DNA from: Methylobacterium nonmethylotrophicum
GTDB taxonomy: Bacteria > Pseudomonadota > Alphaproteobacteria > Rhizobiales > Beijerinckiaceae
Assembly: GCF_004745635.1 (NCBI RefSeq)
Contig: NZ_SRLB01000009.1
Location: 62,001-126,000, forward strand
Direction of reading: 5' to 3'
Length of the DNA stretch: 64,000 bases
Shown: positions 1 through 14,536 of the stretch, one piece after another
Layout: every line of letters begins with the position of its first letter
Position numbering within the stretch: the stretch's first letter is position 1
Notes under the pieces: model-generated
Told to the model about the DNA's origin: nothing
The model's database searches: none
Seen by the model: only the letters and a program-made list of their open reading frames with translations
Position numbers and translations under genes: made by a program

Positions 1-288
1 TGGCCAGTATCTACCGGTATATCGACTCAAGATGATACAACTAATCGGATATTTGCTAAATGTCTGCATTAGCATGAGCGAGGGATATGATGTATCGGCG
101 ACAATTCTGACGATGTCGTTGTGGCTAATAAAGCAAATTCCATGGCCACGATTCACCAAATCGTGCGCAAATATGCGCCTGAACGCGAGTTCCTGGGTCG
201 GGTCATAGGCATCTGTAAAAACTAGACATAAAGATCTTACCTTCTCTGGCAGCTCTACCACGCATGTTTTTGGCACTGTGAGCGACAT
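1..288 (-). CDS. 5' part of unidentified AT-rich gene, cut by the left window edge
   Basis: Read on the minus strand, an ATG at 288 opens 96 codons without a stop up to base 1, so the gene continues beyond the window. The protein begins MSLTVPKTCVVELPEK and shows a mixed, globular-looking composition with no obvious signal peptide. An in-frame TAG lies about 45 bases upstream of the ATG; a TTG a few codons before the ATG is an alternative start. Base composition is far more AT-rich than the rest of the window, and codons such as TTT, ATT, AAA and TTA are common, unlike every neighbour. I do not recognise the family. The composition suggests horizontally acquired DNA. It could be a chance open frame, since AT-rich DNA carries more stops, which makes 96 open codons noticeable but not proof. 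Confidence 0.5.
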   Translation of the reverse strand, partial: MSLTVPKTCVVELPEKVRSLCLVFTDAYDPTQELAFRRIFAHDLVNRGHGICFISHNDIVRIVADTSYPSLMLMQTFSKYPISCIILSRYTGRYWP

Positions 289-1290
289 CGGCTTCCGTCT
301 CAAACTGTCATGATGTGGACTAGCCTGTAAGGCCTAGACCGTCAACATGGACACAACGCGCTGGAACAATGAATCGGGGCCATGTGGCTGGTCGACAAGT
401 TGTGCCGTGTGCAGTCAGAGGCGGACATGCGCTCGCTGTTGTCCATAAATTCCCTCCATTGCTCCGTCCGGAGACAATAGCAGGTCATTTCATGGGCCGC
501 ATTGCTGCCGTTATCGGCATCGGCCGAAGCGAGCCCGCGCCCGACGCGGCCTCCCGCGGGCGATCGCGTGTCGGACAGGGCGAACCCACCTGTCGTGCGG
601 ACCGCGCGCCGCGCCCGGCACGCCAGCGCCAGCACAGCGGGGTACAGCGCCAGTCGATCCCTCGCGCGGCGCCTGGCTTAGGCCGAGCGCCGTCAAGACC
701 TCGTCGTCCGCGTGGGCAGGCAGACGATGGGGTCCCGGTCGGCCGTCTTGGCGGGCGCGCCGCTCGTCTTGGCATCGTCGAGGTTCGACCTGCCCGCCGG
801 ACGGCTGCTTCAGGGACGCGAGACCCGTTCGCCTCCGCGCTGGCAACGGCAGAAGCCCGCCCGGCGAGGGCACTCGCCTCAAGCCGGGAGCGGGCTCCGG
901 TTGCGGGCGGGGGACCGCGGGTCAGCGGCGGCGTGGCGGTCTGCGAGGGGCCCCGAAGCCGGCTTCCGGCGTTGCGTCGGGACGGGCGTGTTCGATCGCG
1001 TGATGCGATCCTGATCACATCGCTGCTCCATGCGACGCATCACCTGTCGGCCGAGGCATCCAGCGCCGGCCCGGGGGCAGGCTCCGGCCCGGATCGGCAC
1101 GGCGCGCCGCCAGCCTCTCCCATGGTCGCCGTTGCGGCGGGGTGCCGCCGCGTCGTCCGCCGCCGGTGGGGGAGGCCGGTCGGGTCGGTTGGATCACGTG
1201 ATCCCTCCGGCATCGCGGCCGCTCCGCGGGCGACCGCCGCGCCGCCGCAGCCCGGGGCAGGCGGATCGCGCGCCGCGGCTTGCGGTCCGC
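289..1290. other. Gene-poor stretch between the foreign-looking edge and the adaptor gene
   Basis: Bases 289-480 are still relatively AT-rich, then GC content jumps to the level of the rest of the window. Several long frames exist after 480, but they overlap each other on both strands and read as Arg/Ala/Pro/Gly-rich nonsense without domain motifs, as expected in GC-rich DNA. A 14-base palindrome (ggatcacgtgatcc) lies at 1191-1204. I see no gene, tRNA or transposase here. Confidence 0.5.
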
Positions 1291-2256
1291 TCAGTTCCGG
1301 CTGCGTGCCTCGGTGCTCTCGACGGGCCGGACGGTGTCGCCCTCGCGCAGGAACGGAGCGGCCCGGACCACGACCGCGTCGGTCTCGGACAAGCCGGTGC
1401 GAACCTCGACCTCGTCCTCGGAGAAGAGCCCGATCGTGACCGGGCGCGCCTCGATGGTGCGGCCGGTGGAGACGTAGACGGCCGGGCCGTCGGGTCCGTT
1501 CACCAGGGCGGAGAACGGCACCGCGATGCCGCAGCTCTCCCCCACCGAGACCGTGCCGCGGGCGAACAGGCCGAGCCGGGTATCGCCCGCCGAGGCGAGC
1601 TGGATGCGTACCTGGCCGAGCTGCGTTGCCGGGTCGGCGACCGGCGAGACGATGCGCACCTTGCCGCTGACCGGAGCGAGGCCGATCGGCTTCACGCTCA
1701 CCGCCTGGCCGGGCGCGAGACGGCCGAGCTTCGCGAGCGGCGCCTCGGCCGCCAGTTCCATCTCGCCCTGGGCGGCGATCACGAAGAGCGGGTCCCGGCG
1801 GGCCGGCGCCTGCACGCCCACCATCGCGGTGCTGCGGCCGACGAGGCCGGAGACGGGGGCGCGCAGCGTCACCGGGCCGCCCGGCTGGCCGTCCTCGGGC
1901 GCGAGCTGCGCCAGGGCCTGCCCGGTCCGTACCTCGTCGAGGGCCTTGACGTAGACCTGGGTCACCCGCAGCCCGTCCCGGTCGGGACGGACCTGCACCT
2001 CCTGCCGCGGCACCAGCACGCCGGTCACGTCGACCCGGTCGGAGAAGCAGCGGACCTTCGTGCGGGCCACGCTCACAGCGGGGCCGGCGGGCTGGGCCGG
2101 CGCCGGATCGCCCGCCGCGGCGGCGAGCCCGGGGGCCAAGGCTGCGCAGCCCGCAAGCACCGCGTAGGCCGCGAGCCGCAGGTCGTTATCGCCGAACCGG
2201 CGGCCGCTCTTGCGAAAGCGGCCGCTCTTGCGAAACCCGCTCAGGACCCGCGGCAT
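1291..2256 (-). CDS. Efflux-type periplasmic adaptor (HlyD/RND adaptor family) without coiled-coil hairpin
   Basis: A 321-residue exported protein. The N-terminus has basic residues, a hydrophobic stretch and a lipobox-like VLAGC near residues 34-38, so it may be a lipoprotein. The body reads as a membrane-fusion protein: a beta-barrel/lipoyl segment (VDVTGVLVPRQEVQVRP), the lipoyl closing half (VTLRAPVSGLVGRS), a barrel (GKVRIVSPVADPATQ) and the membrane-proximal domain (VPFSALVNGPDGPAVYV). The two lipoyl halves are joined by only about ten residues, so the alpha-helical hairpin that normally contacts the outer-membrane channel is missing. No pump gene is adjacent within the window. The first ATG that leaves the upstream asmA-like gene free was used. 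An 18-base tandem duplication at 2201-2236 repeats RKSGRF near the start. Family assignment is fairly sure; the substrate is unknown. Confidence 0.82.
   Translation of the reverse strand: MPRVLSGFRKSGRFRKSGRRFGDNDLRLAAYAVLAGCAALAPGLAAAAGDPAPAQPAGPAVSVARTKVRCFSDRVDVTGVLVPRQEVQVRPDRDGLRVTQVYVKALDEVRTGQALAQLAPEDGQPGGPVTLRAPVSGLVGRSTAMVGVQAPARRDPLFVIAAQGEMELAAEAPLAKLGRLAPGQAVSVKPIGLAPVSGKVRIVSPVADPATQLGQVRIQLASAGDTRLGLFARGTVSVGESCGIAVPFSALVNGPDGPAVYVSTGRTIEARPVTIGLFSEDEVEVRTGLSETDAVVVRAAPFLREGDTVRPVESTEARSRN
2201..2236. repeat. 18-base direct tandem duplication inside the adaptor gene start
   Basis: Two adjacent copies of cggccgctcttgcgaaa(g/c) lie at 2201-2218 and 2219-2236 and differ only at the last base. 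The unit length is a multiple of three, so the frame is kept and the protein gains a repeated RKSGRF-like segment before its signal peptide. Confidence 0.9.
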
Positions 2257-2333
2257 CGGAAGTCTTGGTCGCGACACGTCTCGTCCGCTCCGCCTGTATG
2301 GCCGGGCCGCCCGCGGCCCGCCCCTGTTTCCCG

Positions 2334-4061
2334 TCACGGTCGCGGCCGGCCCCGGGGCGCCCCCGGCCGTCCTCCCCCGTCCGCCGGCATCAGCGCGTCG
2401 AGCAGCCCCCCGAGGCCGCCGCCGTTCCGGCCTCCCAGGAGCCCGCCGCCGACGGCGCCGAGCTCCCGCGACAGCTTTCCATCGCCCATCAGCCCCGCCA
2501 GGTCGACCTGGATCTGAGGGGCATCCCATGGACCGTTGATGAGCACCGGCAGGCTCACGTCGAGGATGCGGGGCAGGTTGCGGGCCGCCGCGCGGGTCAG
2601 GCGCGGCTCGATGCGGAAGGCGATGCGCTGCGCCGTGAGGTCGACCACGCCGCTGCCGCCCGCGGTGACGAGGGGGCCGGCGAGGGCGAGTTCCTGGGTG
2701 GCGGCCCGGCCGTCCTGAAGATCGAAGCGCAACGAGAGCCGGTCGAACGAGGTGGTGTCGGCGGAGGAGACCTGCGCCGCCATGGACTGCACCACGCCCG
2801 GGATGTCGATGCCGACGAGGCGGCCGTTCTCGACCAGGAGCGAGGCCTTGCCGGACAGGCCGCGCCGGATGCCGTCGAGGTCGCGCCCCATGCTCCGCAG
2901 GTCGAGGGACGCGCTCGCGGTGCCGTCGAGGAGGGTGAAGCCGGCAAGCCCCGACAGAAGCGGCAGGGCCCGGGCCCGCGTCAGCTCGAGCTGCAGGGCG
3001 TGGCGCGGCACGTCGCCCGCGGCGGCCGGCACCGTGGTGGCGAGGCGGCCCCGGACCTGCCCGCCCTGCAGCGCGGCCGGCGCCAGCGTCGCCTCCACGG
3101 CGCCTTCGGTGAGCCGCAGGTCGAGGTCGGCCTCGCCGAGGCGGGTCTGGCCGACCGCGAGGGAGCCCGCCCGCAGCCGCACCCGGCCGTCGAACAGGCG
3201 CAGCATCGCGACGTCCGGCACCGCGCCGGCGCCCGAGGGCGCCGCGAGGGACAGGGCGTCGAAGCCGAGGTCGAGCCGCACGAACGGCTTCTGCGCCAGG
3301 TCGACCACGACGCTGCCGCCGAAGCGGTCCGGGCCGAGGCTGCCGGCAAGGCGCGAGAGGCTCAGGGCCGGGCCCGCCAGGGCGGCATCGGCGGTGCCGG
3401 TGAGCGGCGCCCCCGCGAGCTGCGGCGCCCGGCAGGTGAAGGCGACCGCGACCGGCGCCGCTTCGCCCGGCGGGCTGGCCGCCGCGAGGGCCGGCGCGAC
3501 GGTCAGGTCGCAGGTGCCCTGCAGGCCGGCCCCCCGGCCCGCCACCGTGACGGCGTGGCCGTCGCCCCGGGGCTCCGCCGTGGCCTCGAGCGCCTCGAGC
3601 GCCGCGACGACGCGCTCGCCTTCCGTCAGCGCGAGGCTGCCGTCGCGCACGGTGATGCGCCGGGGCAGCGGCGGACGCGCCGGTGGCGGGGACCCGCCCC
3701 GCGCCGCCTCGGCCCCGCGCCACCACTGCGCCGGCCAGAGCAGGGCCGGGCGGACGAGCTCCGCCTCTTCCACCTCGCCGGCCAGGAGGCCGGACGCCGT
3801 CCCGCCGAGGCGCACGGCCTCGATCGTCAGGCGGGCCCGGCCCGCCGATCCGAGATCCGTCTCCGTCGCCAGGTCGCGCAGGGTCACGCCCAGGGGCTCA
3901 AGCGACAGCCCGGCGCCCCCCACCGTCCAGGGTCGTCCGGTCGCCGCCTCGAGACGATCGGCGGCAGCGCGCGCGACCAGGGCCTCGCCCGCGATCAGGA
4001 GAGCCGTCACGCCGGCCGCGGCGGCCGTCGCGAGGATGAGCAGGAGGTTGCGCAGTCTCAT
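2334..4061 (-). CDS. AsmA family protein
   Basis: A 575-residue protein with one N-terminal membrane helix (MRLRNLLLILATAAAAG) followed by a large beta-rich periplasmic region. The C-terminal part carries the AsmA signature: a run ending in GSGVVDLTAQRIAFRIEP, then LPVLINGPWDAPQIQVDL, where a predicted low-pass term is compared to a no-net-contribution boundary in the family. The tail is Gly/Pro/Arg-rich. AsmA-like proteins act at the inner membrane/periplasm and are linked to outer-membrane lipid transport and assembly. The ATG at 4061 begins exactly at the membrane helix; an upstream ATG at 4115 would add a Cys-rich segment unlike the family. The adaptor gene begins 77 bases downstream on the same strand and may be co-transcribed. 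Confidence 0.85.
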   Translation of the reverse strand: MRLRNLLLILATAAAAGVTALLIAGEALVARAAADRLEAATGRPWTVGGAGLSLEPLGVTLRDLATETDLGSAGRARLTIEAVRLGGTASGLLAGEVEEAELVRPALLWPAQWWRGAEAARGGSPPPARPPLPRRITVRDGSLALTEGERVVAALEALEATAEPRGDGHAVTVAGRGAGLQGTCDLTVAPALAAASPPGEAAPVAVAFTCRAPQLAGAPLTGTADAALAGPALSLSRLAGSLGPDRFGGSVVVDLAQKPFVRLDLGFDALSLAAPSGAGAVPDVAMLRLFDGRVRLRAGSLAVGQTRLGEADLDLRLTEGAVEATLAPAALQGGQVRGRLATTVPAAAGDVPRHALQLELTRARALPLLSGLAGFTLLDGTASASLDLRSMGRDLDGIRRGLSGKASLLVENGRLVGIDIPGVVQSMAAQVSSADTTSFDRLSLRFDLQDGRAATQELALAGPLVTAGGSGVVDLTAQRIAFRIEPRLTRAAARNLPRILDVSLPVLINGPWDAPQIQVDLAGLMGDGKLSRELGAVGGGLLGGRNGGGLGGLLDALMPADGGGRPGAPRGRPRP

Positions 4062-4517
4062 GTCCGGCCAGCAACCATCGAGCGCCCGCGGGCAACAGAA
4101 GACCGCAAACGTCACGCGAAATCAATCGCCGCCGCGGCTCCTCCAGTGCTTCGAATCGTGCAGTGCTTCGAATCGTGGTCGACGCGGTTCAGCCGTGAGA
4201 GCGGCGTCGAGACAGTCGGCGCTCCGTCCGGCGATCCTGCGGCGCAGCCAGAGGCTCTTGGGCGTCGGTGCGCTGCCGGGCCTCAAGCGCCGCCTGGAGA
4301 GGGGCCTCGCTTCGTCGGGGAGCCCCGGCCCTGGCGCGGGCGGGACCGATCCCCGGCAGGCTCTCCCGGACCGTCAGGCTCATCGGCAGGGCTCCCCCTC
4401 CCGGGTGACCGAGCCGGCCTCCGCTCAAACCGGAATCCGCCGTCAACCCGCGTTCGGAGCCGTGGGTCGGCACCAGTTCCGCTTTACGCCGAGCCGCCTT
4501 TCTGGCACCGCCCGGAC
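4062..4517. other. Intergenic region with a 17-base tandem duplication
   Basis: This gap separates the leftward asmA-like gene from a small rightward frame. It holds two adjacent exact copies of cagtgcttcgaatcgtg at 4144-4160 and 4161-4177. Long frames across it are low-complexity and overlap on both strands. I see no gene here; it should contain the asmA promoter. Confidence 0.5.
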
Positions 4518-4667
4518 ATGTCGCTGCGCGCCTGCCTCGTCCTCGCCCTCGTCACCGGCCTCGCGGGCCTCGGCCTGCGCCTCGCCCTGCCGGTCGCGCC
4601 GGTCGACCAGGATTATCGCGACGTGATCGCATTCTACCGTGCGATGCCGGCGGGCAGCGGGCACTAA
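4518..4667 (+). CDS. Small hypothetical protein, 49 residues
   Basis: The frame runs from ATG 4518 to TAA 4665-4667. The product starts MSLRACLVLALVTGLAGLGL, a convincing single hydrophobic helix or signal peptide, followed by a short polar tail (VDQDYRDVIAFYRAMP). No family is recognised. In favour: a clean signal-like N-terminus, and a terminator-like hairpin (4665-4692 followed by a T-rich run) starting at the stop codon. Against: no strong Shine-Dalgarno and small size. It could be a membrane microprotein or a chance frame. Confidence 0.45.
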   Translation: MSLRACLVLALVTGLAGLGLRLALPVAPVDQDYRDVIAFYRAMPAGSGH

Positions 4668-4677
4668 GCGGAACTGC

Positions 4678-4777
4678 ATGGCGCAATTCTGCTGAGGCTC
4701 TTGTTTTTACATCATTTTCGCCGCCGAACCGGTGACCACTTCGGCACCGGTCGCTCGCCACCGGCGGAATGAGGCTT
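4678..4777 (+). repeat. Dispersed 100-bp intergenic element, copy A
   Basis: This element matches copy B at 8259-8358 over 100 bases with about a dozen differences by eye. A central stretch of 43 bases (4711-4753) is identical. The core contains ccgaaccggtgaccacttcg and an accggt inverted motif. Its left side forms a terminator-like imperfect hairpin with the bases just before it, followed by a T-rich run. The core resembles a family of abundant short intergenic repeats known in Rhizobiales. Both copies lie in the same orientation just after a rightward gene. Confidence 0.85.
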
Positions 4778-4857
4778 CGTGCACCTCACACGACTCCCGC
4801 TGCGCCGAGGCCGCCACACTGAGCAAGGCCGGCGATCGGGAGTTGTGCGAGAGACGC

Positions 4858-5697
4858 TTAGCCGCCGCCGATCTCCCGTCCCGCCGCCTCCGCCAGCGCC
4901 CGGAAGCGCGCGCCGGTCAGCCCCAGGCCCCACGCCTCGTAGAGCAGCCGCCCGCCATTCGGCAGGGCGTCGAACCGGTCCTCCGGCGCCTCGCGGAAGC
5001 GCTCGAGGGCGATCGGGACGAGGTTCAGGGTTGCGGCCTGGCTGGCATGGGCGGAGAAGAGCGCGGCCTTGAAGGCGCAATCCTCCGGGTCGAGGTGCAG
5101 CGCGATCGCCCGGCGGGGAGGGTCCGTGGGCAGGAAGCTGCCGGCCTCCAGCCCGTCCGGGCCGGCATGGTAGAACGGCATCTCGATCACCGCGAGGCGC
5201 TCATGCCCCAGAAGCCGCCGGGCGCCCTGGACGGCCAGCGCCACCGCGTCGTGGTCCGGGTGGCCGCCCTCGTAGGCGTGGGTCAGCGCCACCCCGATGC
5301 CGCGCTCCGCGAACAGGGCCGCGAGGTGCCGGGCCAGCGGCGCGATGATCGCGGCCACGCCCTGGTCGGGATGCAAGAGGCCGATGCGCCGCTCGGGGGG
5401 GATCCCCGCCAGCGTCAGGGCCGCGTCGAGCTCGCCCGCCCGGGCGGCCGCGTAGGAGGCGGCATCCGGGAAGCCGCGCCGGGCCGCGTCCCGCCCGTCG
5501 CGAGGCGCGCCGTCGGTGACGTGGACCACCGTCAGCCCGGAAAGGCGCGGCAGCTGCGCGCCGCAGCCGATGCTCTCGTCGTCCGGGTGCGCCACCACGA
5601 GGGCGACTTGGTGCGCCGCCACCGGCCCGCAGGCCGGGTCGGCGAGGGCCGCGAGGAAAGCGTCAGCGGCCGGCGAGGTCGGGGCAAGGCGCGGCAT
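4858..5697 (-). CDS. PIG-L family deacetylase
   Basis: A 279-residue protein of the PIG-L/LmbE family, zinc-dependent enzymes that remove the acetyl group from N-acetylglucosaminyl-type substrates. The metal and catalytic motif AHPDDES lies at residues 36-42 and the second metal motif GGHPDHD at 144-150; both are intact. No signal peptide is seen, so it should be cytoplasmic. The start is the first ATG of the conserved part, five bases after the stop of the glycosidase gene upstream on the same strand. The two therefore form an operon, and both fit glycan or glycoconjugate metabolism. The real substrate cannot be read from sequence. Confidence 0.88.
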   Translation of the reverse strand: MPRLAPTSPAADAFLAALADPACGPVAAHQVALVVAHPDDESIGCGAQLPRLSGLTVVHVTDGAPRDGRDAARRGFPDAASYAAARAGELDAALTLAGIPPERRIGLLHPDQGVAAIIAPLARHLAALFAERGIGVALTHAYEGGHPDHDAVALAVQGARRLLGHERLAVIEMPFYHAGPDGLEAGSFLPTDPPRRAIALHLDPEDCAFKAALFSAHASQAATLNLVPIALERFREAPEDRFDALPNGGRLLYEAWGLGLTGARFRALAEAAGREIGGG

Positions 5698-5702
5698 CGG
5701 CG

Positions 5703-6677
5703 TCAGATCGCCGGCTGCGGTCCGAGGGCCGGCCCGGGCCGGATCATCCCGGCGTAGCGCCGGATCATCGCGGCGCAGAATTCCGCGAATTCCTCCTTCA
5801 CCTGCGGCGGGCTGGTGTGATGCGGGGCGATGCCCCGGTGCTCGGGGGTGAAGCAGAAGGTCACGGTCACGTCGAACTCCGCCAGGGCCTCCATCTGCCG
5901 GTCGAACCAGTCGAGGGCATCGGGCCGGAACGAATCGGCCCAGGACAGGCCGGTGCGCAAGTACGTCACGCCGAGCCGCCGCATCCAGGCCACCGCCTCG
6001 TCGAGGCGGTGATCCTGGTAGTGGAACCACTGGCACAGGCCGAGCGCCGGGGTGTGGCGGGCGAAGTGCTCCAGCGCGGGCTTGGGCGTGCCGTCCTCGC
6101 GAAGCAACCCCATGTAGAAGTGCCGGTAATAGGACGAGCCCTCCGCCTCCCGGTGCCGGGTCGTGGCGCCCCAGGCCTGCGGCAGGTCGTAGAGGCTGTA
6201 CCAGTGGATCCGCGGCGCCCGGCCGACCAGCAAGGCGGCGGTGCGGTCGACGCCGAAGACCTGCACCTCCTCGGCCCCGAAGGTCGAGACGCCGACCTCG
6301 GTGACCCAGATCGGCTTGTCCGTCACCGCCCGGATCTCCGCGAGCTTGTCCGGCCACTCGTTGATCTGCCACAGGTTCCAGTCGAGCGGGAAGCCGTGCA
6401 CCGCCACCACGTCGACGTGGTCGAGGGCGCGCCTTCCGTCGAGCAGGCGGATGAAGGACGGGTCGATCGGCGAGATGCCGCCCAGCACCGTCGGCAGGTG
6501 CGGGGCCTCCGCCTTCACGGCTCTGGCCGCGCAGTCGAGCGTGTCGGCGAACAGGGCCCAGCCCGGGTCGATCTCCGGGTCCCAGTGCGACTTGTTGTTG
6601 GGCTCGTTCCAGATCATCGCCGCTTCGATCATGCGGACCTCGGGCTCAAACAGGCAGGGGGTATGATGGCCCGTCAT
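5703..6677 (-). CDS. Clan GH-A glycosidase-like protein (beta-xylosidase type) with apparently permuted barrel
   Basis: A 324-residue protein with the two glycosidase clan A acids: IWNEPN (Glu25, expected on strand 4) and WVTEVGVST (Glu127, expected on strand 7). In ordinary members strands 1-3 come before the NEP motif. Here NEP is at residue 24. The segment that looks like strands 1-3 (RRLGVTYLRTGLSW, then FDVTVTFCFTPEHRG and EFCAAMIRRYAG) comes after strand 8 and the usual end region (RHFYMGLLREDGTPKPALEHF). This reads as a circular permutation at the strand 3/4 junction. No signal peptide. ATG 6677 was preferred to ATG 6701. It is co-directional with and five bases from the PIG-L gene, and divergent from the amidohydrolase gene. 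Fold and acids are well supported; the substrate is unknown. Confidence 0.8.
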   Translation of the reverse strand: MTGHHTPCLFEPEVRMIEAAMIWNEPNNKSHWDPEIDPGWALFADTLDCAARAVKAEAPHLPTVLGGISPIDPSFIRLLDGRRALDHVDVVAVHGFPLDWNLWQINEWPDKLAEIRAVTDKPIWVTEVGVSTFGAEEVQVFGVDRTAALLVGRAPRIHWYSLYDLPQAWGATTRHREAEGSSYYRHFYMGLLREDGTPKPALEHFARHTPALGLCQWFHYQDHRLDEAVAWMRRLGVTYLRTGLSWADSFRPDALDWFDRQMEALAEFDVTVTFCFTPEHRGIAPHHTSPPQVKEEFAEFCAAMIRRYAGMIRPGPALGPQPAI

Positions 6678-6813
6678 GGCGGCAGGGCGGGCGCGGCGCA
6701 AGCGGGGGCGGGCGGCGCGTCACTTCGGGACGCTGGCCCGGACCTCGGGCCCGGCATATCGTGACGTCACATCGACGGCGCCGCGGCGCGCGGGCCGAGT
6801 CGGGGAGGGTGCC

Positions 6814-8223
6814 ATGCTTCGCATTGGATTGCGCACGGCCAAAGGCTTTCGGGCGGAAGGGTTCTCGGCGGACGCTGTCGAGCCGGCGCGCCGCGCGCTC
6901 CTGAAGGGCGCCTGCGCCTGCGCGAGCCTGGCCTTCCTGCCCCGCGCCGCCGCGGCGCAAGTCGGCGCCGCTCCCGCCCCCGTCCGGCCGGTCCACGGCG
7001 ACCTCGACGCCGCGGCGCGGGAGGTCGAGGCGGCGATGCTCGCCTGGCGGCGCGACATCCACGCCAATCCGGAACTCGGCAACCGCGAGCGCCGTACCGC
7101 GGCCCTGGTGGCCAAGCATCTGAAGGGCCTCGGCTACGAGGTGCGGGAGGGCGTCGGCCGCACGGGCGTCGTCGCGGTGCTCAAGGGCGGAGGCAGGCCC
7201 GGGCCGGTCGTGGCGCTCCGGGCCGACATGGACGCCCTGCCGGTGCGCGAGGAGGTCGACCTGCCCTTCGCCTCGAAGGCCAAAGCCGAATGGGGCGGCC
7301 AGGAGGTCGGGGTGATGCATGCCTGCGGCCACGATTGCCACGTGGCGATCCTGATGGCGGCGGCCCAGGTCTTCTCCGCCCACCGCGACCGCCTGCCCGG
7401 CACGATCAAGCTGCTGTTCCAGCCCGCCGAGGAGGGTACGGTCGGGGAGGGCGTCTGCGGCGCCCGCCTGATGGTGGACGAGGGCGCGATGCGCGACCCG
7501 AAGCCCGACATGGTGTTCGGCCTCCACGTCTCGAGCGCGCTCCCGGTCGGCAGCATCGGCTACCGGCCCGGCGCCGCCATGGCGGGGGCGGACCGCTTCC
7601 AGATCAAGGTAACCGGGCGCCAGACCCACGGCGCGATGCCGTGGAACGGCGTCGACCCGATCGTGATCGGCTCGACCATCGTCACGACGCTGCAGACCGT
7701 GGTCAGCCGCGAGACAGACATCGCCCGCAGCCCCGCGGTGCTCAGCGTCGGCATCTTCAAGGGGGGCTTGCGCAACAACATCATCCCGGAGACGGCGGAG
7801 CTGGAGGGCACGCTCAGGACCTTCGGCGAGGCGCAGCGCGCCACCGCCAAGCGCCGGGTCACCGAGATCGCCCAGTCGATCGCGACCGGCATGAACGGCC
7901 GGGCCGAGGTGATCTGGGACGAGAACGGCTATCCGCCGCTCCAGAACGACGCGAAGCTCACCGCCCAGGCCGCCCCGACGCTGGCGCGCCTGTTCGGCGA
8001 GCACGCGCGGGTCGTCGACCCCGCCATGGCGAGCGAGGACTTTCCCTACTTTGCGCGTGAGGCGCCCGGCTTCTTCTACTTCGTCGGCATCACGGCTCCG
8101 GGCACCGATCCCGCCAAAGCCGCGCCCAACCACTCGCCGCGCTTCCGCGTCGACGAGGCCGGCCTGATGACCGGCCTGCGCGCCACCCTGCACCTCGTGG
8201 CGGACGCGACCGGGATGGCGTGA
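6814..8223 (+). CDS. Exported M20-family amidohydrolase
   Basis: A 469-residue member of the M20D/amidohydrolase family, dinuclear-metal enzymes that cleave N-acyl amino acids and similar amides. Metal-binding motifs are present: ADMDALP (137-143), HACGHDCH (169-176) and QPAEEG (203-208), then the dimerisation region (TGRQTHGAMPW) and a late AMASEDFPYF motif. The N-terminus has RRALLKGACACASLAF, a twin-arginine-like signal ending at AAAAQ, so export is likely. A GGAG lies ahead of ATG 6814. An ATG further upstream (6676) would overlap the divergent glycosidase gene start and add a poorly conserved tail. A perfect intrinsic terminator follows at 8243-8283, so the gene is probably a single transcription unit. 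Confidence 0.9.
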   Translation: MLRIGLRTAKGFRAEGFSADAVEPARRALLKGACACASLAFLPRAAAAQVGAAPAPVRPVHGDLDAAAREVEAAMLAWRRDIHANPELGNRERRTAALVAKHLKGLGYEVREGVGRTGVVAVLKGGGRPGPVVALRADMDALPVREEVDLPFASKAKAEWGGQEVGVMHACGHDCHVAILMAAAQVFSAHRDRLPGTIKLLFQPAEEGTVGEGVCGARLMVDEGAMRDPKPDMVFGLHVSSALPVGSIGYRPGAAMAGADRFQIKVTGRQTHGAMPWNGVDPIVIGSTIVTTLQTVVSRETDIARSPAVLSVGIFKGGLRNNIIPETAELEGTLRTFGEAQRATAKRRVTEIAQSIATGMNGRAEVIWDENGYPPLQNDAKLTAQAAPTLARLFGEHARVVDPAMASEDFPYFAREAPGFFYFVGITAPGTDPAKAAPNHSPRFRVDEAGLMTGLRATLHLVADATGMA

Positions 8224-8242
8224 GCCGTGTCGAGATCCAATC

Positions 8243-8283
8243 AACCAAGCAGAGTTGGATGGCGCAACTCTGCTTGGTTTTTT
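8243..8283 (+). terminator. Intrinsic terminator of the amidohydrolase gene
   Basis: A perfect 15-base-pair stem (aaccaagcagagttg paired with caactctgcttggtt) with a 7-base loop is followed directly by an unbroken T run, starting 20 bases after the stop codon at 8223. The right half of the stem belongs to repeat copy B. Confidence 0.92.
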
Positions 8284-8358
8284 GCTTTTGCATCATTTTC
8301 GCCGCCGAACCGGTGACCACTTCGGCACCGGTCGTTCGCGACCGGCGGAATGATGCTT
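8259..8358 (+). repeat. Dispersed 100-bp intergenic element, copy B
   Basis: Second copy of the element at 4678-4777, same orientation, with the 43-base core identical. Its left end forms half of the intrinsic terminator. The core has the inverted accggt motif (gaaccggtgaccacttcggc). Confidence 0.85.
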
Positions 8359-8690
8359 AGATCATGCGAGGGGCTGTTTCCAACGGGAGCGGACGTTCAC
8401 GACGGCCGCTTCGCAGCACTCGATCCGGACGGCTCTTCCTGGATGGCCTCGCAGACATTGCAACCGAAGCGCGAGCCATCGTGCACACGATGGCCCTTGA
8501 ACAGCTGATTACTCTACGTTACAGAGTTCTCTGTGATGAAGAGATTTGTGATGACGGCTCCAAACCCGTTCCATGCGCGTGACGATGCCCGTCTCGCTCT
8601 CGCTGCGGCGGAAGATGGCGAGAGCCGCCTGCTCGCCGCTCTCCTCTACGGTCAGGCCAGCCCCTACCTCAACTCTGGGGTGTCGCCTGG
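8359..8690. other. Gap without a supported gene
   Basis: Between repeat copy B and the membrane protein gene no frame shows a domain or convincing start. The motif agcggacgttcac near 8385 recurs inverted as gtgaacgtccgct near 9516, flanking the small gene pair, and may be a remnant of another short repeat. Confidence 0.4.
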
Positions 8691-9134
8691 ATGGCGGGGT
8701 TCGTCGGCACCTTTCTCGCGCCGGAGCGCACGGGCACCATCTGGTCGGCCGTAACGGCCCTGGGTTGGGCAACGACGATGCTTTTTGTTCTTGTGAAACG
8801 CCGCATCAGCCGGGCGCGGCGCTTCGGGCTTGGAATTCGCTACGGTTGCTCGGCGATGCTCATGAGCGCCTATGCCGCGCTCTGGGCCTTCATCCTGCTG
8901 TCCGGGCATGCGAATGCCCTCGGCATCTACGCAGGCACCGTCACCGGCTTCGCCTACCTCATCGCCGGCCTCTGGCGCGGGCGGTTGCTGGCGGTCCTCG
9001 GCGGCGCCTTGACAGTCTTGTTCCTGGCCGGTTTTGCGATGCCGCCCACGGGGTTCCTGCTCTATGCCGGCCTGCTCGGCGGCGGCGGCCTCGTCGCTGC
9101 CGGCCTGCTGTTGGCCCGGCGTGACCCAACCTGA
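8691..9134 (+). CDS. Small membrane protein of unknown function
   Basis: A 147-residue protein with about five hydrophobic segments (for example GTIWSAVTALGWATTMLFVL, YAALWAFILLS, LLAVLGGALTVLFLAGFAM and the Gly/Leu-rich C-terminal helix), so an inner-membrane protein. I recognise no named family. The first in-frame ATG is 8691; the frame is open further upstream, so a GTG or TTG start cannot be ruled out. Its stop overlaps the start of the next gene in TGATG, a sign of translational coupling to the winged-helix regulator. A role tied to that regulator is inference only. Confidence 0.7.
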   Translation: MAGFVGTFLAPERTGTIWSAVTALGWATTMLFVLVKRRISRARRFGLGIRYGCSAMLMSAYAALWAFILLSGHANALGIYAGTVTGFAYLIAGLWRGRLLAVLGGALTVLFLAGFAMPPTGFLLYAGLLGGGGLVAAGLLLARRDPT

Positions 9135-9451
9135 TGCTTGCACAGATGCCTGGCGACCTCGATGCGATCATTCATACGCCGGCACGGCTGCGGATCATGG
9201 CTGCCCTCGCCGCCAGTCCCGAGGGGAGTTTGCTGGAGTTCAAGCGGCTGCGTGCTCTGCTCGGCCTTACGGATGGCAACCTCGGTGCCCACATCGCCAC
9301 GCTCGGAGGCGCGGGCTATGTTGCGGTGACCAAGGATTTTGAGGGGAAGCGTCCACGAACACGGATCGCTGTGACAAAGGCGGGCTATACGGCCTACCTG
9401 GCGCATGTCGCGGCTCTGCGCGCCATCCTCGACGGAGGTGATGTCGGCTGA
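9134..9451 (+). CDS. Winged-helix transcriptional regulator (HTH_27/MarR-like)
   Basis: A 105-residue protein nearly all of which is one winged-helix domain. The order is: helix IIHTPARLRIMAALAA, an acidic turn, helix LLEFKRLRALLGLTDGNLGAHIATLGGAGYV (recognition region), then a wing (VTKDFEGKRPRTRIAVTKAG) and a closing helix. This is the pattern of stand-alone regulators in the winged-helix DNA-binding group related to MarR/ArsR. It begins at the A of the preceding gene's stop codon, so the two are coupled. A DUF2306-like membrane protein follows 273 bases downstream. Ligand and targets are unknown. Confidence 0.85.
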   Translation: MLAQMPGDLDAIIHTPARLRIMAALAASPEGSLLEFKRLRALLGLTDGNLGAHIATLGGAGYVAVTKDFEGKRPRTRIAVTKAGYTAYLAHVAALRAILDGGDVG

Positions 9452-9724
9452 CCTCGCCGGCTGCTTGCGCCAGTCGGATGTGGGAGCGCTCGGCCGGAAC
9501 CAGTCACCGCCGGCGTGAACGTCCGCTTTCGGGACGCGATGGCACAGCTCGCTCGCCACCCTCAACGGCCCTCCGCAAGGTCAAGCTGATTATGTCTCGA
9601 CCCCAAGCGAGCATATCAGCGAGAAGACGCGAACGCGCATCGCTTTCGACGCTCCCCTGGTGATCGATTGCGAGGCTGATCTTCACCCGCCAGGCCATCA
9701 TCACGGAAAATTCCGAGGGAAGGA

Positions 9725-10213
9725 GTGGATGACGTGTCCAGCCTCACCATGCCGGGAATCATTCATACTGTGCTGGCTGCGGCCGGGATCGTGCTCGGTC
9801 TGGTGCAATTCCTGACCCGCAAGCGGGGCAGCCTGCATCGGGCCGTCGGCTACGCGTTCGTCTATGCCATGCTGATCGCGGATTGCGCCGCCCTGCTCGT
9901 CTTCCAGTTCACGGGTGCGTGGAACATCCTGCATTTCGGCGCGCTGACAAGCCTTGCCTGCATGGCTGCAGGCATGTGGCCGGTACTGCGCTCACCCCGG
10001 TGCCCTGACTGGCGCGAGAAACACTATCTGTGGATCTCGTGGTCCTATGTCGGGCTGCTGGCGGCGGCGGCGACCGAACTTGTCGTGCGCACTCTGCCCC
10101 TCAGACATGCGGGCCAGGCCTGGCTCGTGACCTTTGCGGTCACGCTGACCGTGACGCTGGTCGGCCGGTCCCTCATCCTCCGCCATCAACCAGCTGCCAG
10201 GGATCCCGTGTGA
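9725..10213 (+). CDS. DUF2306-like membrane protein
   Basis: A 162-residue protein with four predicted helices and the LVQFLTRKRGSLHRAVGYAF motif typical of DUF2306 proteins, whose function is not established. The GTG at 9725 gives the longest product, but AAGGAG at 9719-9724 then touches the start. The GTG at 9734 has that Shine-Dalgarno nine bases upstream and may be the real start. No intrinsic terminator is obvious after it. It may belong with the two genes upstream, since all run rightward and two of the three are small membrane proteins. Confidence 0.75.
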   Translation: MDDVSSLTMPGIIHTVLAAAGIVLGLVQFLTRKRGSLHRAVGYAFVYAMLIADCAALLVFQFTGAWNILHFGALTSLACMAAGMWPVLRSPRCPDWREKHYLWISWSYVGLLAAAATELVVRTLPLRHAGQAWLVTFAVTLTVTLVGRSLILRHQPAARDPV

Positions 10214-10526
10214 CGTGGCTGGCAGGACCGGCCCGGACAGGGCCCCCGGCAGGGCCGACCCGGGCCGGTCGGCTGGCATCCGCCCACGGCTCGGCCGCGT
10301 ATTACGCTAGGTCCTTGATTCTGCCGCGTTTTCTGCAACGAACCGTTATCCACGTCGCCGGAAGGCGCCCTGGAAGCATTCCGAAGAACAACCGGCCTTC
10401 CCTGCGGCTTGACGGCCACGCAGACCTCGCTTGTGCGGCGATGCCTTGACGGCGATGCCGCACCTGCGAGATGACCCTTCCCAAACGATTGCCGACCCGT
10501 CGACCGCCTTCAGGATTCCTGGCACG
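10214..10526. other. Intergenic region upstream of fpr
   Basis: No gene is supported. The region should carry the fpr promoter. A conserved ferredoxin reductase start sits at 10527, and the frame open upstream of it from 10431 has no family-like residues. GC-rich inverted stretches (ccggcccggacagggc) after 10220 could act as a weak terminator for the upstream gene, without a T run. Confidence 0.4.
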
Positions 10527-11300
10527 ATGAGCAACTTCAACGAGGAGCGCGTCCTGTCCGTCCATCACTGGACCGACTCGCTCTTCAGCTTCCGCACGAC
10601 CCGCGACCCGTCGTTCCGCTTCCGCAACGGCGAGTTCACGATGATCGGCCTCAAGGCCGAGGGCAAGCCGCTGCTGCGCGCCTACAGCGTGGTGAGCGCC
10701 AACTACGAGGACGAGCTGGAGTTCTTCTCCATCAAGGTGCCGAACGGCCCGCTCACCTCCAAGCTGCAGCACCTCAAGGTCGGCGACCCGATCGTGGTCA
10801 GCCGCAAGGCCACCGGCACCCTGGTGCTCGACAACCTGATGCCCGGCCGGCACCTCTACCTGCTCGGCACCGGCACCGGACTCGCGCCGTTCCTGGCGAT
10901 CATCAAGGATCCGGAGACCTACGAGCGCTTCGAGAAGGTGGTGCTCGTCCATGGCTGCCGCCAGGTGCAGGAGCTCGCCTACGGCGAGACGATCACCGAG
11001 ACGCTGCCGAACCACGAGCTGATCGGCGACATGGTCCGCGACCAGCTGGTCTACTACCCGACCGTGACCCGCGAGCCGTTCCGCAACCGCGGCCGCATCA
11101 CCGACCTCATGACCTCGGGCAAGCTCTTCTCCGACATCGGCCTGCCGATGATGACGAAGGAGGACGACCGCTTCATGCTCTGCGGCAGCCCGGACATGAT
11201 TCGCGACACCCGCGACCTCCTGTCGGGGGCCGGCTACGTCGAGGGCAATCACGGCGAGGCCGGCCACTACGTCATCGAGAAGGCCTTCGTCGAGAAGTAG
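10527..11300 (+). CDS. fpr: Ferredoxin--NADP reductase
   Basis: A 257-residue bacterial-type ferredoxin/flavodoxin-NADP+ reductase. It moves electrons between NADPH and ferredoxin or flavodoxin through FAD in the cytoplasm. Visible motifs are RAYSVVS (51-57, FAD binding), GTGTGLAPF (114-122, NADP binding), the LVHGCR strand and FMLCGSP with a short C-terminal tail (HYVIEKAFVEK). The length matches the family when translation starts at MSNFNEERVL. The frame is open 32 codons further upstream but that part is not family-like. The racemase-like gene starts 33 bases downstream. Confidence 0.95.
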   Translation: MSNFNEERVLSVHHWTDSLFSFRTTRDPSFRFRNGEFTMIGLKAEGKPLLRAYSVVSANYEDELEFFSIKVPNGPLTSKLQHLKVGDPIVVSRKATGTLVLDNLMPGRHLYLLGTGTGLAPFLAIIKDPETYERFEKVVLVHGCRQVQELAYGETITETLPNHELIGDMVRDQLVYYPTVTREPFRNRGRITDLMTSGKLFSDIGLPMMTKEDDRFMLCGSPDMIRDTRDLLSGAGYVEGNHGEAGHYVIEKAFVEK

Positions 11301-11333
11301 CCGCGCGCGGGATGCGCCGAGGAGACCGTTTCG

Positions 11334-12056
11334 TTGCGCATCCTGCTCATCAACCCCAACACCACGGCCGCCGTCACCGAGCAGGCGGCGGCGCATGTCC
11401 GACGGCTGATCCCGGGCGAGATCGTGCCGGTCACGGGCCGGTTCGGCGCCCGCTACATCGCGAGCCGCGCGGCGGCCGCGATCGCCGGCCACGCCGCCCT
11501 CGACGCGCTGGCGGCCAACGTCGCGGGATGCGACGCGGTCTACCTCGCCTGCTTCGGCGATCCCGGTCTGCTCGCCCTCAAGGAAGTCTCGCCGGTGCCG
11601 GTCGTCGGCATGGCGGAAGGGGCGCTGCACCTCGCCTGCACCCGGGGGCGGCGGATCGGCATCGTGACCGGCGGCGTCCTGTGGAAGCCGATGCTCGCCG
11701 AGTTCGTGGCGATGCTGGGCCTCTCCGAGCGTCTGGCCGCCATCCGCACCGTCGCGCCGACCGGCGGCGAGATCGCCCGCGACCCCGACGCCGCCCTCGG
11801 CCGCCTCGCGGCCGCCTGCCGCGACTGTGCCGAGATCGACGGGGCCGACGTGGTGGTGCTCGGCGGCGCGGCGCTGGCCGGCCTCGCCGAGCGGGTGCAG
11901 CCGCAGGTGCCGGTGCCGGTGATCTGCTCGGTCGAGGCCGGGGCACGGGCGGTGGTCGCCGCCGCGGGGCTCGCCGGGGCGCGGCCGGCGCTGCCGGCGA
12001 CCGAGAGCGTGGGGCTGTCCGAGGAACTGGCGCGGATGCTGAGCGCCGGAGGCTGA
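11334..12056 (+). CDS. Asp/Glu/hydantoin racemase family protein lacking the second cysteine
   Basis: A 240-residue member of the Asp/Glu/hydantoin racemase superfamily, with the N-terminal RILLINPNTTAAVT motif and the first catalytic Cys73 in YLACFGDPG. The second half-site, which normally reads LGCAGM, here is LGGAALAG with Gly176 in place of Cys, so a classic two-cysteine racemase mechanism is not available. The enzyme may catalyse a one-base reaction or bind without racemising. The start is TTG 11334 with GGAG nine bases upstream, which gives the complete N-terminal strand. It lies 33 bases after fpr and may be co-transcribed. Family is sure; activity is not. Confidence 0.85.
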   Translation: MRILLINPNTTAAVTEQAAAHVRRLIPGEIVPVTGRFGARYIASRAAAAIAGHAALDALAANVAGCDAVYLACFGDPGLLALKEVSPVPVVGMAEGALHLACTRGRRIGIVTGGVLWKPMLAEFVAMLGLSERLAAIRTVAPTGGEIARDPDAALGRLAAACRDCAEIDGADVVVLGGAALAGLAERVQPQVPVPVICSVEAGARAVVAAAGLAGARPALPATESVGLSEELARMLSAGG

Positions 12057-12182
12057 CGCGCGCAGGCTCCCTGCTTTGGGTCAAGCGGTCGCCGGACCAC
12101 CCGGTCTGCGAGCGTGTCGCCGACGCCCTGGCGCCGCCGCTCCCGCCATGCTTCTCTCCGCCGGACAGGGAGAGCCGGCCCC

Positions 12183-12521
12183 ATGCGCACCACACCGATG
12201 ATCCTGGCGGCCGCCGCCCTGCTCGCCGCCCTGCCGGCCCGCGCCCTCGACCTGCGCGACCTGCCGGTCGTCAAGGCGCCCGAGGCCTGCCCGCACGAGG
12301 GGCCCGGCTTCACCCGCCTCGTGCCCGGAGGGCCGTGCACGCGCATCAGCGGCCGGGTGCGGGCCGAGGCCGGCACGCCGGTGCCGGCCCGGCCGGGGCT
12401 TGCGCTCGACGGGGCGCCGAGGGGCGTCGTCAGCGGCGCCGGCCAGGTCGCGATCGACACGCGGACGCAGACCGATTACGGCCCGGCCCGGGCCTATATC
12501 CGCCTCGGCACCGGGCGCTGA
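12183..12521 (+). CDS. Short porin-like exported protein
   Basis: A 112-residue protein with a signal peptide (MRTTPMILAAAALLAALPARAL) followed by VVKAPEACPHEGPGF and GGPCTRISGRVRAE. These match the start of alphaproteobacterial porins: two cysteines bracketing a short loop, then the first barrel strand. It ends with TRTQTDYGPARAYIRLGTG, which resembles a second porin strand. Full-length porins are four or more times longer, so this is either an N-terminal relic with a new stop or a small independent protein. No frame continuing the porin is seen downstream, where the leftward flgN-like gene ends. ATG 12183 begins the signal peptide. Confidence 0.7.
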   Translation: MRTTPMILAAAALLAALPARALDLRDLPVVKAPEACPHEGPGFTRLVPGGPCTRISGRVRAEAGTPVPARPGLALDGAPRGVVSGAGQVAIDTRTQTDYGPARAYIRLGTGR

Positions 12522-12530
12522 CACCGCGCC

Positions 12531-13019
12531 TCACAGGCTGCGCGAGAGCACCAGCGGCACGCTCCGGCGATGGCCGTAGGGCGACGGGGCCGGACGAGTG
12601 CCGTAGCCGATGCCGTAGCCTTGGGGCTCGGCGCTGCGGGTGAGCTCGGCCGAGAGGCTGCGCAACAGACCCTCCGAGATCGCCCGGGCGGTCCCCAGGA
12701 CCGCCTGGTTGGCGGCGACCGCGTCGGAGAACCGCCCGTGGGCCTCCCGCAGGGCGGCGAGGCCCTCGGGGGCGAAGCGGGCGAGCGCCACGGCGTTCGC
12801 CTTCACGGCCTGGAGACCCTGCAGGTAGGCGCCCGACAGCGCGGTCTTCAGCGGCGCCTCGGCCAGGCCCTCCGCGAGGCGCCCGACCCGGATGTGGTCG
12901 CTCTCGCGCCCGAGCAGCACCTCGAGGTCCCGCATGACGCTCAGCGTCTCGGCGACCAGGCGCTCGGCGCCCTCGGCGTCGGCGACCCGGACGGGAGCGG
13001 ACGGGCCCGCCTCAGGCAC
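12531..13019 (-). CDS. FlgN-like flagellar protein (putative export chaperone)
   Basis: A 162-residue, largely helical protein (RLVAETLSVMRDLEVLLGRESDHIRVGRLAEG onward) that starts with GTG at 13019 and overlaps the stop of the rod-binding gene by eight bases, so it is translated with it. Helical segments and position after flgI and a FlgJ-like gene fit the FlgN family, chaperones for the hook-filament junction proteins FlgK and FlgL. Similarity to enteric FlgN is only at pattern level. The C-terminal 35 residues are Arg/Pro/Gly/Tyr-rich and probably disordered. The flagellar link is firm from context; the chaperone role is inference. Confidence 0.7.
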   Translation of the reverse strand: MPEAGPSAPVRVADAEGAERLVAETLSVMRDLEVLLGRESDHIRVGRLAEGLAEAPLKTALSGAYLQGLQAVKANAVALARFAPEGLAALREAHGRFSDAVAANQAVLGTARAISEGLLRSLSAELTRSAEPQGYGIGYGTRPAPSPYGHRRSVPLVLSRSL

Positions 13020-13359
13020 CGGCGCCTCCCTGCAGGCGCAGCATCTCGCGCATCACCTGGTCGCCGATGCCGACGCCGCCGCTCTGCACGATCGACTGGG
13101 CGTATTCCTTGTTGAGCATCGACCGGTAGATCCCGCCGCCGGTGCCGTTCTCGCCGAGCGGGCCGTCGGTGCCCTGCGAGCGGTTGAGGACGTCGAGGCT
13201 CTGCTCCAGGAACATCGACTCGAAGTCCTTGGCGGTCTTCTGGATCTTGGACTTGTCGCCGGTGAGGGCCGACAGCCCGGAGGTGACGGCGCCGGCGAGG
13301 GCCTGGCCGGCCGCCAGGCCGGCGGAGGCCGCGAGGGGAGCGAGTGGGATCATCGGCAA
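13012..13359 (-). CDS. FlgJ-type rod-binding protein (short form)
   Basis: A 115-residue protein corresponding only to the rod-binding domain of FlgJ: KTAKDFESMFLEQSLDVLNRS, an acidic GPLGENGTGGGIYRSMLNKEYAQSI segment, and the final GIGDQVMREMLRLQ. The muramidase domain of enteric FlgJ is absent, as is usual in alphaproteobacteria, where a separate enzyme opens the peptidoglycan. It acts in the periplasm as a cap for rod assembly. It lies 64 bases after flgI and overlaps the flgN-like gene, so these three form one leftward operon. Confidence 0.9.
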   Translation of the reverse strand: MPMIPLAPLAASAGLAAGQALAGAVTSGLSALTGDKSKIQKTAKDFESMFLEQSLDVLNRSQGTDGPLGENGTGGGIYRSMLNKEYAQSIVQSGGVGIGDQVMREMLRLQGGAGA

Positions 13360-13423
13360 TGACCTCGGGATCGGGAGGGACGAGGAAGAGTGGCGAGGGG
13401 GCGGGGCGCAGGGCTGACCGGCG

Positions 13424-14536
13424 TCACATCACCTCGATGTCGGCCTGGAGGGCGCCGGAGGCCTTGATGGCCTGGAGGATCGAGATCAGGTCGCGCGGGC
13501 CGATGCCGAGCGCGTTGAGCCCGTCGACCAGCTCGCGCAGGGTCACGCCCTCCTTGACCAGGGCGAGCTTGTTCTTCTCGCCGGCATCGACCTTGAGGGC
13601 GGTGCGCGGCACCACCACCGTCTCGCCGTTGGAGAACGGCGCCGGCTGGCTCACCTGCGGCGTCTCGGTGATGGTGACGGTGAGGTTGCCCTGCGCCACC
13701 GCCACGGTGGAGACCCGCACGTCGCGGCCCATCACGATGATGCCGGAGCGCTCGTCGATCACCACCCGGGCGGTCTGGTCCGGCTCGACCTTGAGCTGCT
13801 CGACCTCGGTGAGCAGCCGGATCATGTTGCCCTGGTAGCGCGCCGGCACCTGCAGGGTGACGGTGGAGGGGTCGGTCGGCTCGGCGGTGTCGGCGCCCAT
13901 GAAGTCGTTGATCGCCGCGGCGATGCGCTTCGAGGTGGTGAAGTCCGGGTTGCGCAGCGAGAGCCGCAGGCACTTCTGCTCGTTGAGCTTGAACGCGATC
14001 TCGCGCTCGATCACCGCGCCGTTGGCGATGCGCCCGTTGGTCGGCACGCCGCGGGTGATCTTGGCCGCGTCCCCCTCGGCCTGGAAGCCCGCGATGGCGA
14101 GCGACCCTTGCGCCACCGCGTAGGCCTCGCCGTCGGCGCCGAGCAGCGGCGTCACGAGCAGCGTGCCGCCCTGGAGCGACTTGGCGTCGCCGAGCGAGGA
14201 GACCGTGACGTCGATCCGCGTGCCCTGCGCCGCGAAGGGGGGGAGGTTCGCCGTCACCATCACGGCGGCGAGGTTGGCGGTGCGCATGGTGGCGCCGCGG
14301 GTGTTGACCCCGAGCCGCTCCAGCATCGCCTGGACCGACTGCTTGGTGAAGGGCGCGTTGTTGAGCGTGTCGCCGGTGCCGTTGAGCCCGACCACGATGC
14401 CGTAGCCGATGAGCTGGTTGGTCCGCATCCCCTCGACGCTGGCGAGGTCCTTCACCCGCGACAGGGCGAGGGCGGGCCGGGCCGCCAGGACGGGAAGGAG
14501 GGCGAGAAGCATGAGGACGAGGAGGCGGAGGCGCAT
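13424..14536 (-). CDS. flgI: Flagellar P-ring protein FlgI
   Basis: A 370-residue P-ring subunit, which assembles in the periplasm around the rod at the peptidoglycan layer. It has a Sec signal (MRLRLLVLMLLALLPVLAARPALAL) and then the strongly conserved start SRVKDLASVEGMRTNQLIGYGIVVGLNGTGD (a single continuous block at residues 26-57), plus TPLLGADGEAYAVAQG and the C-terminal region LVDGLNALGIGPRDLISILQAIKASGAL. Length matches the family. ATG 14536 begins the signal peptide; the open frame upstream is not family-like. It is divergent from fliX with shared regulatory DNA between them. Confidence 0.97.
   Translation of the reverse strand: MRLRLLVLMLLALLPVLAARPALALSRVKDLASVEGMRTNQLIGYGIVVGLNGTGDTLNNAPFTKQSVQAMLERLGVNTRGATMRTANLAAVMVTANLPPFAAQGTRIDVTVSSLGDAKSLQGGTLLVTPLLGADGEAYAVAQGSLAIAGFQAEGDAAKITRGVPTNGRIANGAVIEREIAFKLNEQKCLRLSLRNPDFTTSKRIAAAINDFMGADTAEPTDPSTVTLQVPARYQGNMIRLLTEVEQLKVEPDQTARVVIDERSGIIVMGRDVRVSTVAVAQGNLTVTITETPQVSQPAPFSNGETVVVPRTALKVDAGEKNKLALVKEGVTLRELVDGLNALGIGPRDLISILQAIKASGALQADIEVM

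Follow-up and report, generated by a model that had tools for sequence, protein, structure and literature searches.

The window analysed here, a stretch of 64,000 nucleotides from Methylobacterium nonmethylotrophicum (contig NZ_SRLB01000009.1), carries on its minus strand the gene for a clan GH-A-like glycosidase of 309 residues (5703..6632; start ATG at 6632, stop at 5705-5703), whose barrel is almost certainly circularly permuted. Its stop lies 5 bp from the ATG, at 5697, of a gene on the same strand for a 279-residue PIG-L family de-N-acetylase (4858..5697), the five-base link that the first-pass annotation had reported. The latter protein matches Pfam PF02585 (E 1.3e-15; 58.4 bits against a cut-off of 28.2) and carries the AHPDDE and HPDH motifs, whereas its scores fall well short of the MshB and BshB2 model cut-offs. 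On its other side, the glycosidase gene is adjoined by a divergent M20 peptidase/amidohydrolase (PF01546; 6814-8223). An Rfam scan of window positions 1-12000 at gathering thresholds gave no matches.

The glycosidase had first been read as an open reading frame of 324 residues (5703-6677). The gene and its strand stand, but the start at 6677 does not, the most likely start being the ATG at 6632, which corresponds to Met16 of the longer frame and lies 15 codons inside it. Across 100 homologous loci, a set that counts the window's gene itself and more than one retrieval for some species, this site holds ATG in 83 cases, GTG in 16 and ACC in one (L041). The upstream frame is shut by an in-frame stop 1-4 codons ahead of the start in six of these loci (L006, L049, L067, L071, L076 and L085). 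A TIGR04290 methyltransferase gene closely precedes the glycosidase gene on the same strand in 71 loci, and in 68 of them the two genes overlap, glycosidase start with methyltransferase stop, by 8, 4 or 1 bp; strands 1-3 of the barrel have therefore not been missed upstream. The glycosidase thus has no upstream extension: it opens seven residues before the WNEPN motif, at strand 4 (MIEAAMIWNEPN), which leaves no room for a signal peptide, and the protein is therefore probably cytoplasmic.

Two glutamates stand out as candidate catalytic residues, namely Glu10 in WNEPN (6603..6605, minus strand), the predicted acid/base, and Glu112 in WVTEVG (6297..6299, minus strand), the predicted nucleophile. 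Both are invariant in 42 of 42 aligned rows. Among 136 distinct permuted sequences, WNEPN, HGFP and the strand 2 motif RTG-SW are present in every one, and the pattern W-[IVL]-[TS]-E-x-G is found in 134, with the glutamate retained in the other two (WVAEVG and WATEVG). In the numbering of the 324-residue frame, WNEPN occupies residues 23-27, in agreement with the earlier description, and WVTEVG residues 124-129 rather than 125-130. WNEPN lies at the end of a predicted strand (residues 2-8) and Glu112 inside another (108-113), so that, with strand numbers derived from homology, one glutamate follows strand 4 in an NEP motif and the other sits on strand 7. This is the arrangement of clan GH-A, and the roles assigned to the two glutamates are those general to the clan. 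After WVTEVG come strand 8 and then, at the C-terminus, RRLGVTYLRTGLSW, TVTFCFTPEHRG and EFCAAMIRRYAG, the order that had been claimed from the sequence at the outset.

The C-terminal position of strands 1-3 is borne out by comparison with relatives of ordinary strand order. Residues 1-190 (6063..6632, minus strand), with strands 4-8 at residues 2-8, 48-53, 75-80, 108-113 and 142-145, are homologous to the second part of these relatives and to residues 132-320 of PslG from Pseudomonas aeruginosa. Residues 191-296 (5745..6062, minus strand), with strands 1-3 at residues 198-200, 224-230 and 254-260, are homologous to their first part and, as the weak piece of that match, to PslG 25-130. Both segments are thus homologous to a relative with their order swapped, as expected of a circular permutant. 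Against the ordinary-order profile A4, the N-terminal piece matches the second part with E 1.7e-28 and the C-terminal piece the first part with E 8.4e-13; the C-terminal piece also retains the RT-x-[LI]-SWA and TP motifs of the ordinary-order relatives. Aligned to the latter by hhalign, the native order covers 176 columns, whereas the rotated order covers 278 columns with 33% identity and E 2.8e-40. In a rotation scan against the ordinary-order profile, the score rises from 111 bits at zero rotation to a maximum of 164 bits at a cut at 186-192, where one alignment spans positions 7-291 of the model, whereas an ordinary-order control domain peaks at zero rotation, with 565 bits, and falls when rotated, at the lowest to 281 bits. 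The rotated form outscores the native one in all 136 permuted sequences (median 178 versus 118 bits), these being all of the 137 distinct sequences except L041, which was left out. A passage of PMC2395249 holds that, for symmetric folds, sequence similarity should rise after rotation, as it does here. Based on these comparisons, we regard it as nearly certain that the strand order is 4-5-6-7-8-1-2-3 and that the enzyme is a natural circular permutant; the alignments place the break between helix 3 and strand 4, and the junction of the old ends between helix 8 and strand 1.

The ordinary-order relatives, which were found in the window's class with a 23-sequence profile (A1), are alphaproteobacterial proteins (in Rhizobium etli p42b, Tistrella pTM1, Agrobacterium and Paracoccus, among others) that share the catalytic and surrounding motifs of the permuted enzyme and occur in a related gene cluster. 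They differ from it in strand order and in their architecture: the equivalent of residues 192-296 comes first, followed by that of residues 3-191 and then by an SDR epimerase domain, all within one open reading frame. This frame is 676-695 residues long in four examples, and a fifth (L126) was called at 1075 residues from an early start. The closest relative of solved structure by sequence is PslG, a GH39 enzyme with the ordinary order, a different pathway and low identity. In native order, residues 17-202 of the 324-residue frame align with PslG 131-322, and residues 216-309 with PslG 26-129, the second piece being far below significance when taken alone. For the same five sequences, the native profile finds PslG with E 1.2e-4 in two pieces, and the rotated profile with E 2.1e-8 in a single stretch. 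Searched alone against the PDB, the ordinary-order domain profile does not find PslG (its best match is a beta-xylosidase, E 0.07), and it is thus the permuted family that provides the link to PslG. The relation to GH39 runs through PslG; assignment to that family by a curated profile was rejected, with no GH39 family among the Pfam matches at E up to 1 in either order. The sole Pfam family to reach its cut-off (21) is PF11790, Glyco_hydro_cc, at 22.3 bits for the rotated sequence, compared with 20.0 bits (309 residues) and 20.7 bits (324 residues) in native order. Two ordinary-order domains scanned alone gave no Pfam match, and the glycosidase gave no NCBIfam match at E up to 1.

Two AlphaFold models, built from alignments of 23 and 42 sequences (pLDDT 81.4 and 84.4; pTM 0.83 and 0.86), agree on the eight strands that make up one barrel, with five of them ahead of residue 146 and the other three from residue 197 onwards, and thus predict the (beta/alpha)8 fold of clan GH-A. 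The better model aligns with a designed TIM barrel of 228 residues over 215 residues (Z 13.4, rmsd 3.7); the active-site loops 157-167 and 268-271 are of low confidence. In native order, sequential structure alignment also yields whole-length matches to unrelated barrels with Z up to 13.8 and to clan GH-A GH5 endoglucanases with Z 11.6-11.8, and searches of the PDB return generic TIM barrels as well as whole-length GH20 barrels, again in native order. Foldseek against the PDB gave no match below E 0.001 for either model, and PslG is not among the fold matches listed. Since the symmetry of a barrel allows several alignment registers, the whole-length native-order matches neither show nor exclude a permutation. 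The predicted model itself does not show one, and the case is made by the alignments described above.

Two explanations would do away with the permutation. The strand order would be ordinary if a frameshift or an overlooked start further upstream supplied strands 1-3 and the copy at the C-terminus were something else; the 324-residue frame does begin 15 residues before the conserved start, and in some homologues the frame stays open for a long distance upstream. We looked for such a source, found none and rejected this explanation, to which the methyltransferase overlap, the in-frame stops and the homology of the C-terminal piece to strands 1-3 leave a vanishingly small probability. Alternatively, an incomplete barrel could be joined to an independent C-terminal domain, and the Foldseek matches to GH10, GH128 and FMN-binding beta-glucuronidases, which cover only 136-191 columns, might be taken in this sense. 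However, half-length matches to glycosidases are what a sequential aligner is expected to produce given a permutation, and the C-terminal piece carries the motifs of strands 1-3. In both models, moreover, residues 1-190 hold five strands and residues 191-309 three, so that residues 1-200 alone would not make a full barrel; the two halves are predicted to close a single barrel, as the first-pass annotation had proposed, and whole-length single-barrel alignments reach Z 13. A separate C-terminal fold, rejected on these models and on the homology to ordinary-order relatives, therefore seems very improbable.

The permuted form was found in a minority of the genomes sampled. Searches by tblastn confirmed at least 543 relatives in genome contigs, of which the best 80 were kept. 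Permuted genes were found in 8 of 385 genomes in a sample of the class, with ordinary-order fusions in 6. A sample of the phylum had them in 12 of 398 genomes, all 12 in the window's class, with fusions in 2 and eight weak distant matches. In a sample of the order, 24 of 297 genomes had the permuted form and 4 the ordinary-order form, one of them both, with one weak match. The three samples are not disjoint, the window's genome being part of every one. A tree of 81 rows, built without near copies, places the 62 permuted sequences together on one side of a branch (98/93), adjoined by 13 ordinary-order domains (100/99), and one more ordinary-order row (L152) groups with the distant outgroup. Very long branches lead to this outgroup and the bootstrap was still unsettled, so that the position of the root is uncertain. 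A single origin of the permutation is most likely. We describe the permuted clade as sister to the ordinary-order domains and do not claim that it derives from the fusion. Among 200 open reading frames matching the glycosidase, which include many repeat fetches and come mostly from loci found with a permuted query, 164 align with the permuted profile over its full length, 28 match it in swapped order and 8 match weakly or in part; none contains a duplicated segment of the kind expected of a tandem-duplicated intermediate.

The permuted gene keeps characteristic company. Within 6 kb of 80 permuted genes, a TIGR04290 methyltransferase occurs in 75 cases, the inositol-3-phosphate synthase Ino1 in 70, a histidine phosphatase in 61, the epimerase Epi1 and a glycosyltransferase in 49 each, a nucleotidyltransferase in 46, a zinc dehydrogenase and a Gfo/Idh/MocA protein in 28 each, and PIG-L in 19, all counts being lower bounds because at most 6 kb was searched. 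For the Gfo/Idh/MocA protein the top NCBIfam match is inositol 2-dehydrogenase, and for the zinc dehydrogenase scyllo-inosose 3-dehydrogenase ranks second; neither match reaches its cut-off. The cluster, of about 15 genes, also has a B12/radical-SAM enzyme and, in some genomes, PIG-L; annotated examples are found in S. meliloti pSymB, Azospirillum, Roseomonas, Bradyrhizobium, Paracoccus and Ensifer. Of 61 genomes searched for both, 17 have TIGR04290 above cut-off, 17 the permuted glycosidase and 16 both, a weak match of 26% identity in G003 not being counted. We consider it very probable that the glycosidase belongs to this uncharacterised alphaproteobacterial glycan cluster. Plasmid glycan clusters with TIGR04290, several glycosyltransferases, epimerases and, in some cases, TIGR04295 and Ino1 were also seen in L124, L157, L158, L162 and L163. 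A conserved protein of about 580 residues with no Pfam match lies beside Ino1 or the permuted glycosidase in L163 (8400-10133) and L122 (12969-14720). In G011, a partial TIGR04290 match (C1:159989-160285; 84.8 bits, positions 128-226) beside the permuted gene is possibly a broken copy of the methyltransferase gene. Literature searches on TIGR04290, TIGR04295 and Rta_06860, on S. meliloti locus tags guessed from map position, and on the combination of Ino1, PIG-L and radical SAM enzyme returned no paper, nor is the cluster described in the available passages of two further papers, on UDP-apiose and on pSymB.

Ino1 is distributed differently in the genomes with the two topologies. Genome-wide, it is present in 12 of 13 genomes with the permuted enzyme, the exception being G245, and in none of nine with the fusion only (Fisher p 2e-5, for genomes that are not phylogenetically independent; the 13 were hand-picked, and the nine are all that the class, phylum and order samples contained, three of them from one genus). 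Nine fusion loci of 18-25 kb each (L125-L129 and L157-L160, with L128 and L158 from the same plasmid) all contain an epimerase, a glycosyltransferase and a UDP-glucuronate decarboxylase, and seven contain TIGR04290; no Ino1 or histidine phosphatase match was found in them.

PIG-L is the neighbour that the first-pass annotation had singled out, with the suggestion of a two-step glycan pathway. That suggestion finds support in part. The adjacency does recur: in 17 of 80 loci, rhizobia included, PIG-L follows the glycosidase stop at a distance of no more than 105 bp (five of the 17 being close Methylobacterium copies), but it is one part of the larger cluster. The window's own genome has this cluster spread across three contigs: the glycosidase and PIG-L genes lie on C92, with Ino1 about 135 kb away; the phosphatase and TIGR04290 genes lie on C59; and C9 holds Epi1, an unfused epimerase, the radical SAM enzyme and two glycosyltransferases. 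PIG-L is thus the only cluster gene still adjoining the glycosidase while the rest are dispersed. This speaks for a close link between PIG-L and the glycosidase, and so does the distance of about 0.1 kb between them in G877.

Two strains carry both topologies. In the plasmid of Rhizobium sp. CB3090 (L161), a fused ordinary-order domain (11944-13881) and a permuted gene (28568-29497) lie about 15 kb apart in one cluster, with motifs intact in both. In G877 (L182:1411-3390; L214:9575-11470), the fused domain has WDGPEH in place of WNEPNN, so that the acid/base glutamate is gone, and it has lost several loop segments; the same genome carries the permuted enzyme. One pathway step may therefore be served by two topologies, either the epimerase-fused ordinary-order domain or a free-standing permuted enzyme of single origin that displaced the fused domain in the inositol-making lineages, a scenario that we regard as possible but on the doubtful side. 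G877 would then look like a displacement caught midway. Its decayed domain speaks for simple redundancy of the two forms, and the two intact copies in CB3090 speak against it.

Taken as a whole, we read the gene as encoding a permuted clan GH-A-like (beta/alpha)8 glycosidase of the cluster that would carry out a two-glutamate retaining reaction on an inositol-linked glycan, with PIG-L deacetylating, and we assign this explanation a probability of roughly 0.85. The invariant glutamates would meet across the closed barrel, Glu10 as acid/base and Glu112 as nucleophile; the reaction, a retaining one, would remove a beta-linked sugar on the glycan or transfer it, and PIG-L would take an N-acetyl group from the glycan. 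The substrate, the chemistry and the link to inositol are read from the gene neighbourhood. The enzyme is likely an intracellular retaining beta-glycosidase or transglycosidase acting in the cluster's biosynthesis; a specific role in editing the glycan is more tentative, at somewhat less than even odds. The nearest characterised analogue for such a role is PslG, which passages of two papers (PMC11912335, PMC9075953) describe as a retaining endo-beta-glucosidase whose gene lies in the Psl cluster for polysaccharide synthesis and which has been investigated as an intracellular enzyme.

The barrel could also be catalytically dead and serve as a binding or scaffold subunit. Decay does occur in the family, as the fused ordinary-order relative in G877 illustrates, but the conservation of WNEPN, HGFP, RTG-SW and the nucleophile glutamate throughout the permuted sequences makes this unlikely. 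Many records, including many from plasmids, label the gene as a beta-xylosidase, and there is weak profile similarity to GH39 beta-xylosidases (E 0.47 and worse), which would suggest a catabolic enzyme. Six stretches covering 10-12 kb on either side nevertheless have no annotated sugar transporter, within plasmid gene tables that are incomplete. The recurring neighbours are instead glycosyltransferases, epimerases, a nucleotidyltransferase, Ino1 and a methyltransferase, and the closest solved relative, PslG, sits by the published passages in a polysaccharide synthesis cluster; catabolic beta-xylosidase activity is accordingly quite improbable. Linear profile searches align mainly one half of a permuted protein, which may explain why the gene is labelled "beta-xylosidase" or "hypothetical protein".

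Permuted barrels are not new in themselves. The permutation of the GH70 barrel is relative to GH13, and the "beta-glucosidases" cited as natural permutants are probably domain-order permutations in GH3. In passages of PMC9732880 and PMC5216370, the GH70 glucansucrases of clan GH-H represent a natural circular permutation of a glycosidase catalytic barrel, as we propose here; they differ in belonging to another clan and in being alpha-acting, extracellular multidomain enzymes. Transaldolase and class I aldolase provide a natural TIM barrel permutation with a shift of two units (passage in PMC2213659), but they are not glycosidases, and the list of natural permutants in the available part of PMC2395249 includes "beta-glucosidases" without detail. 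Among the papers listed, titles and the beginnings of abstracts showed no natural permuted barrel of clan GH-A, the large clan of retaining beta-glycosidases, and given the GH70 and transaldolase precedents the surprise is moderate. The permuted enzyme marks a glycan cluster, on which we found no paper, in rhizobia, Methylobacterium, Azospirillum and Roseomonas. Permuted and ordinary-order sisters in related clusters, with both forms present in two strains, form natural pairs in which the consequences of the permutation for folding, termini and fusion partners can be tested.
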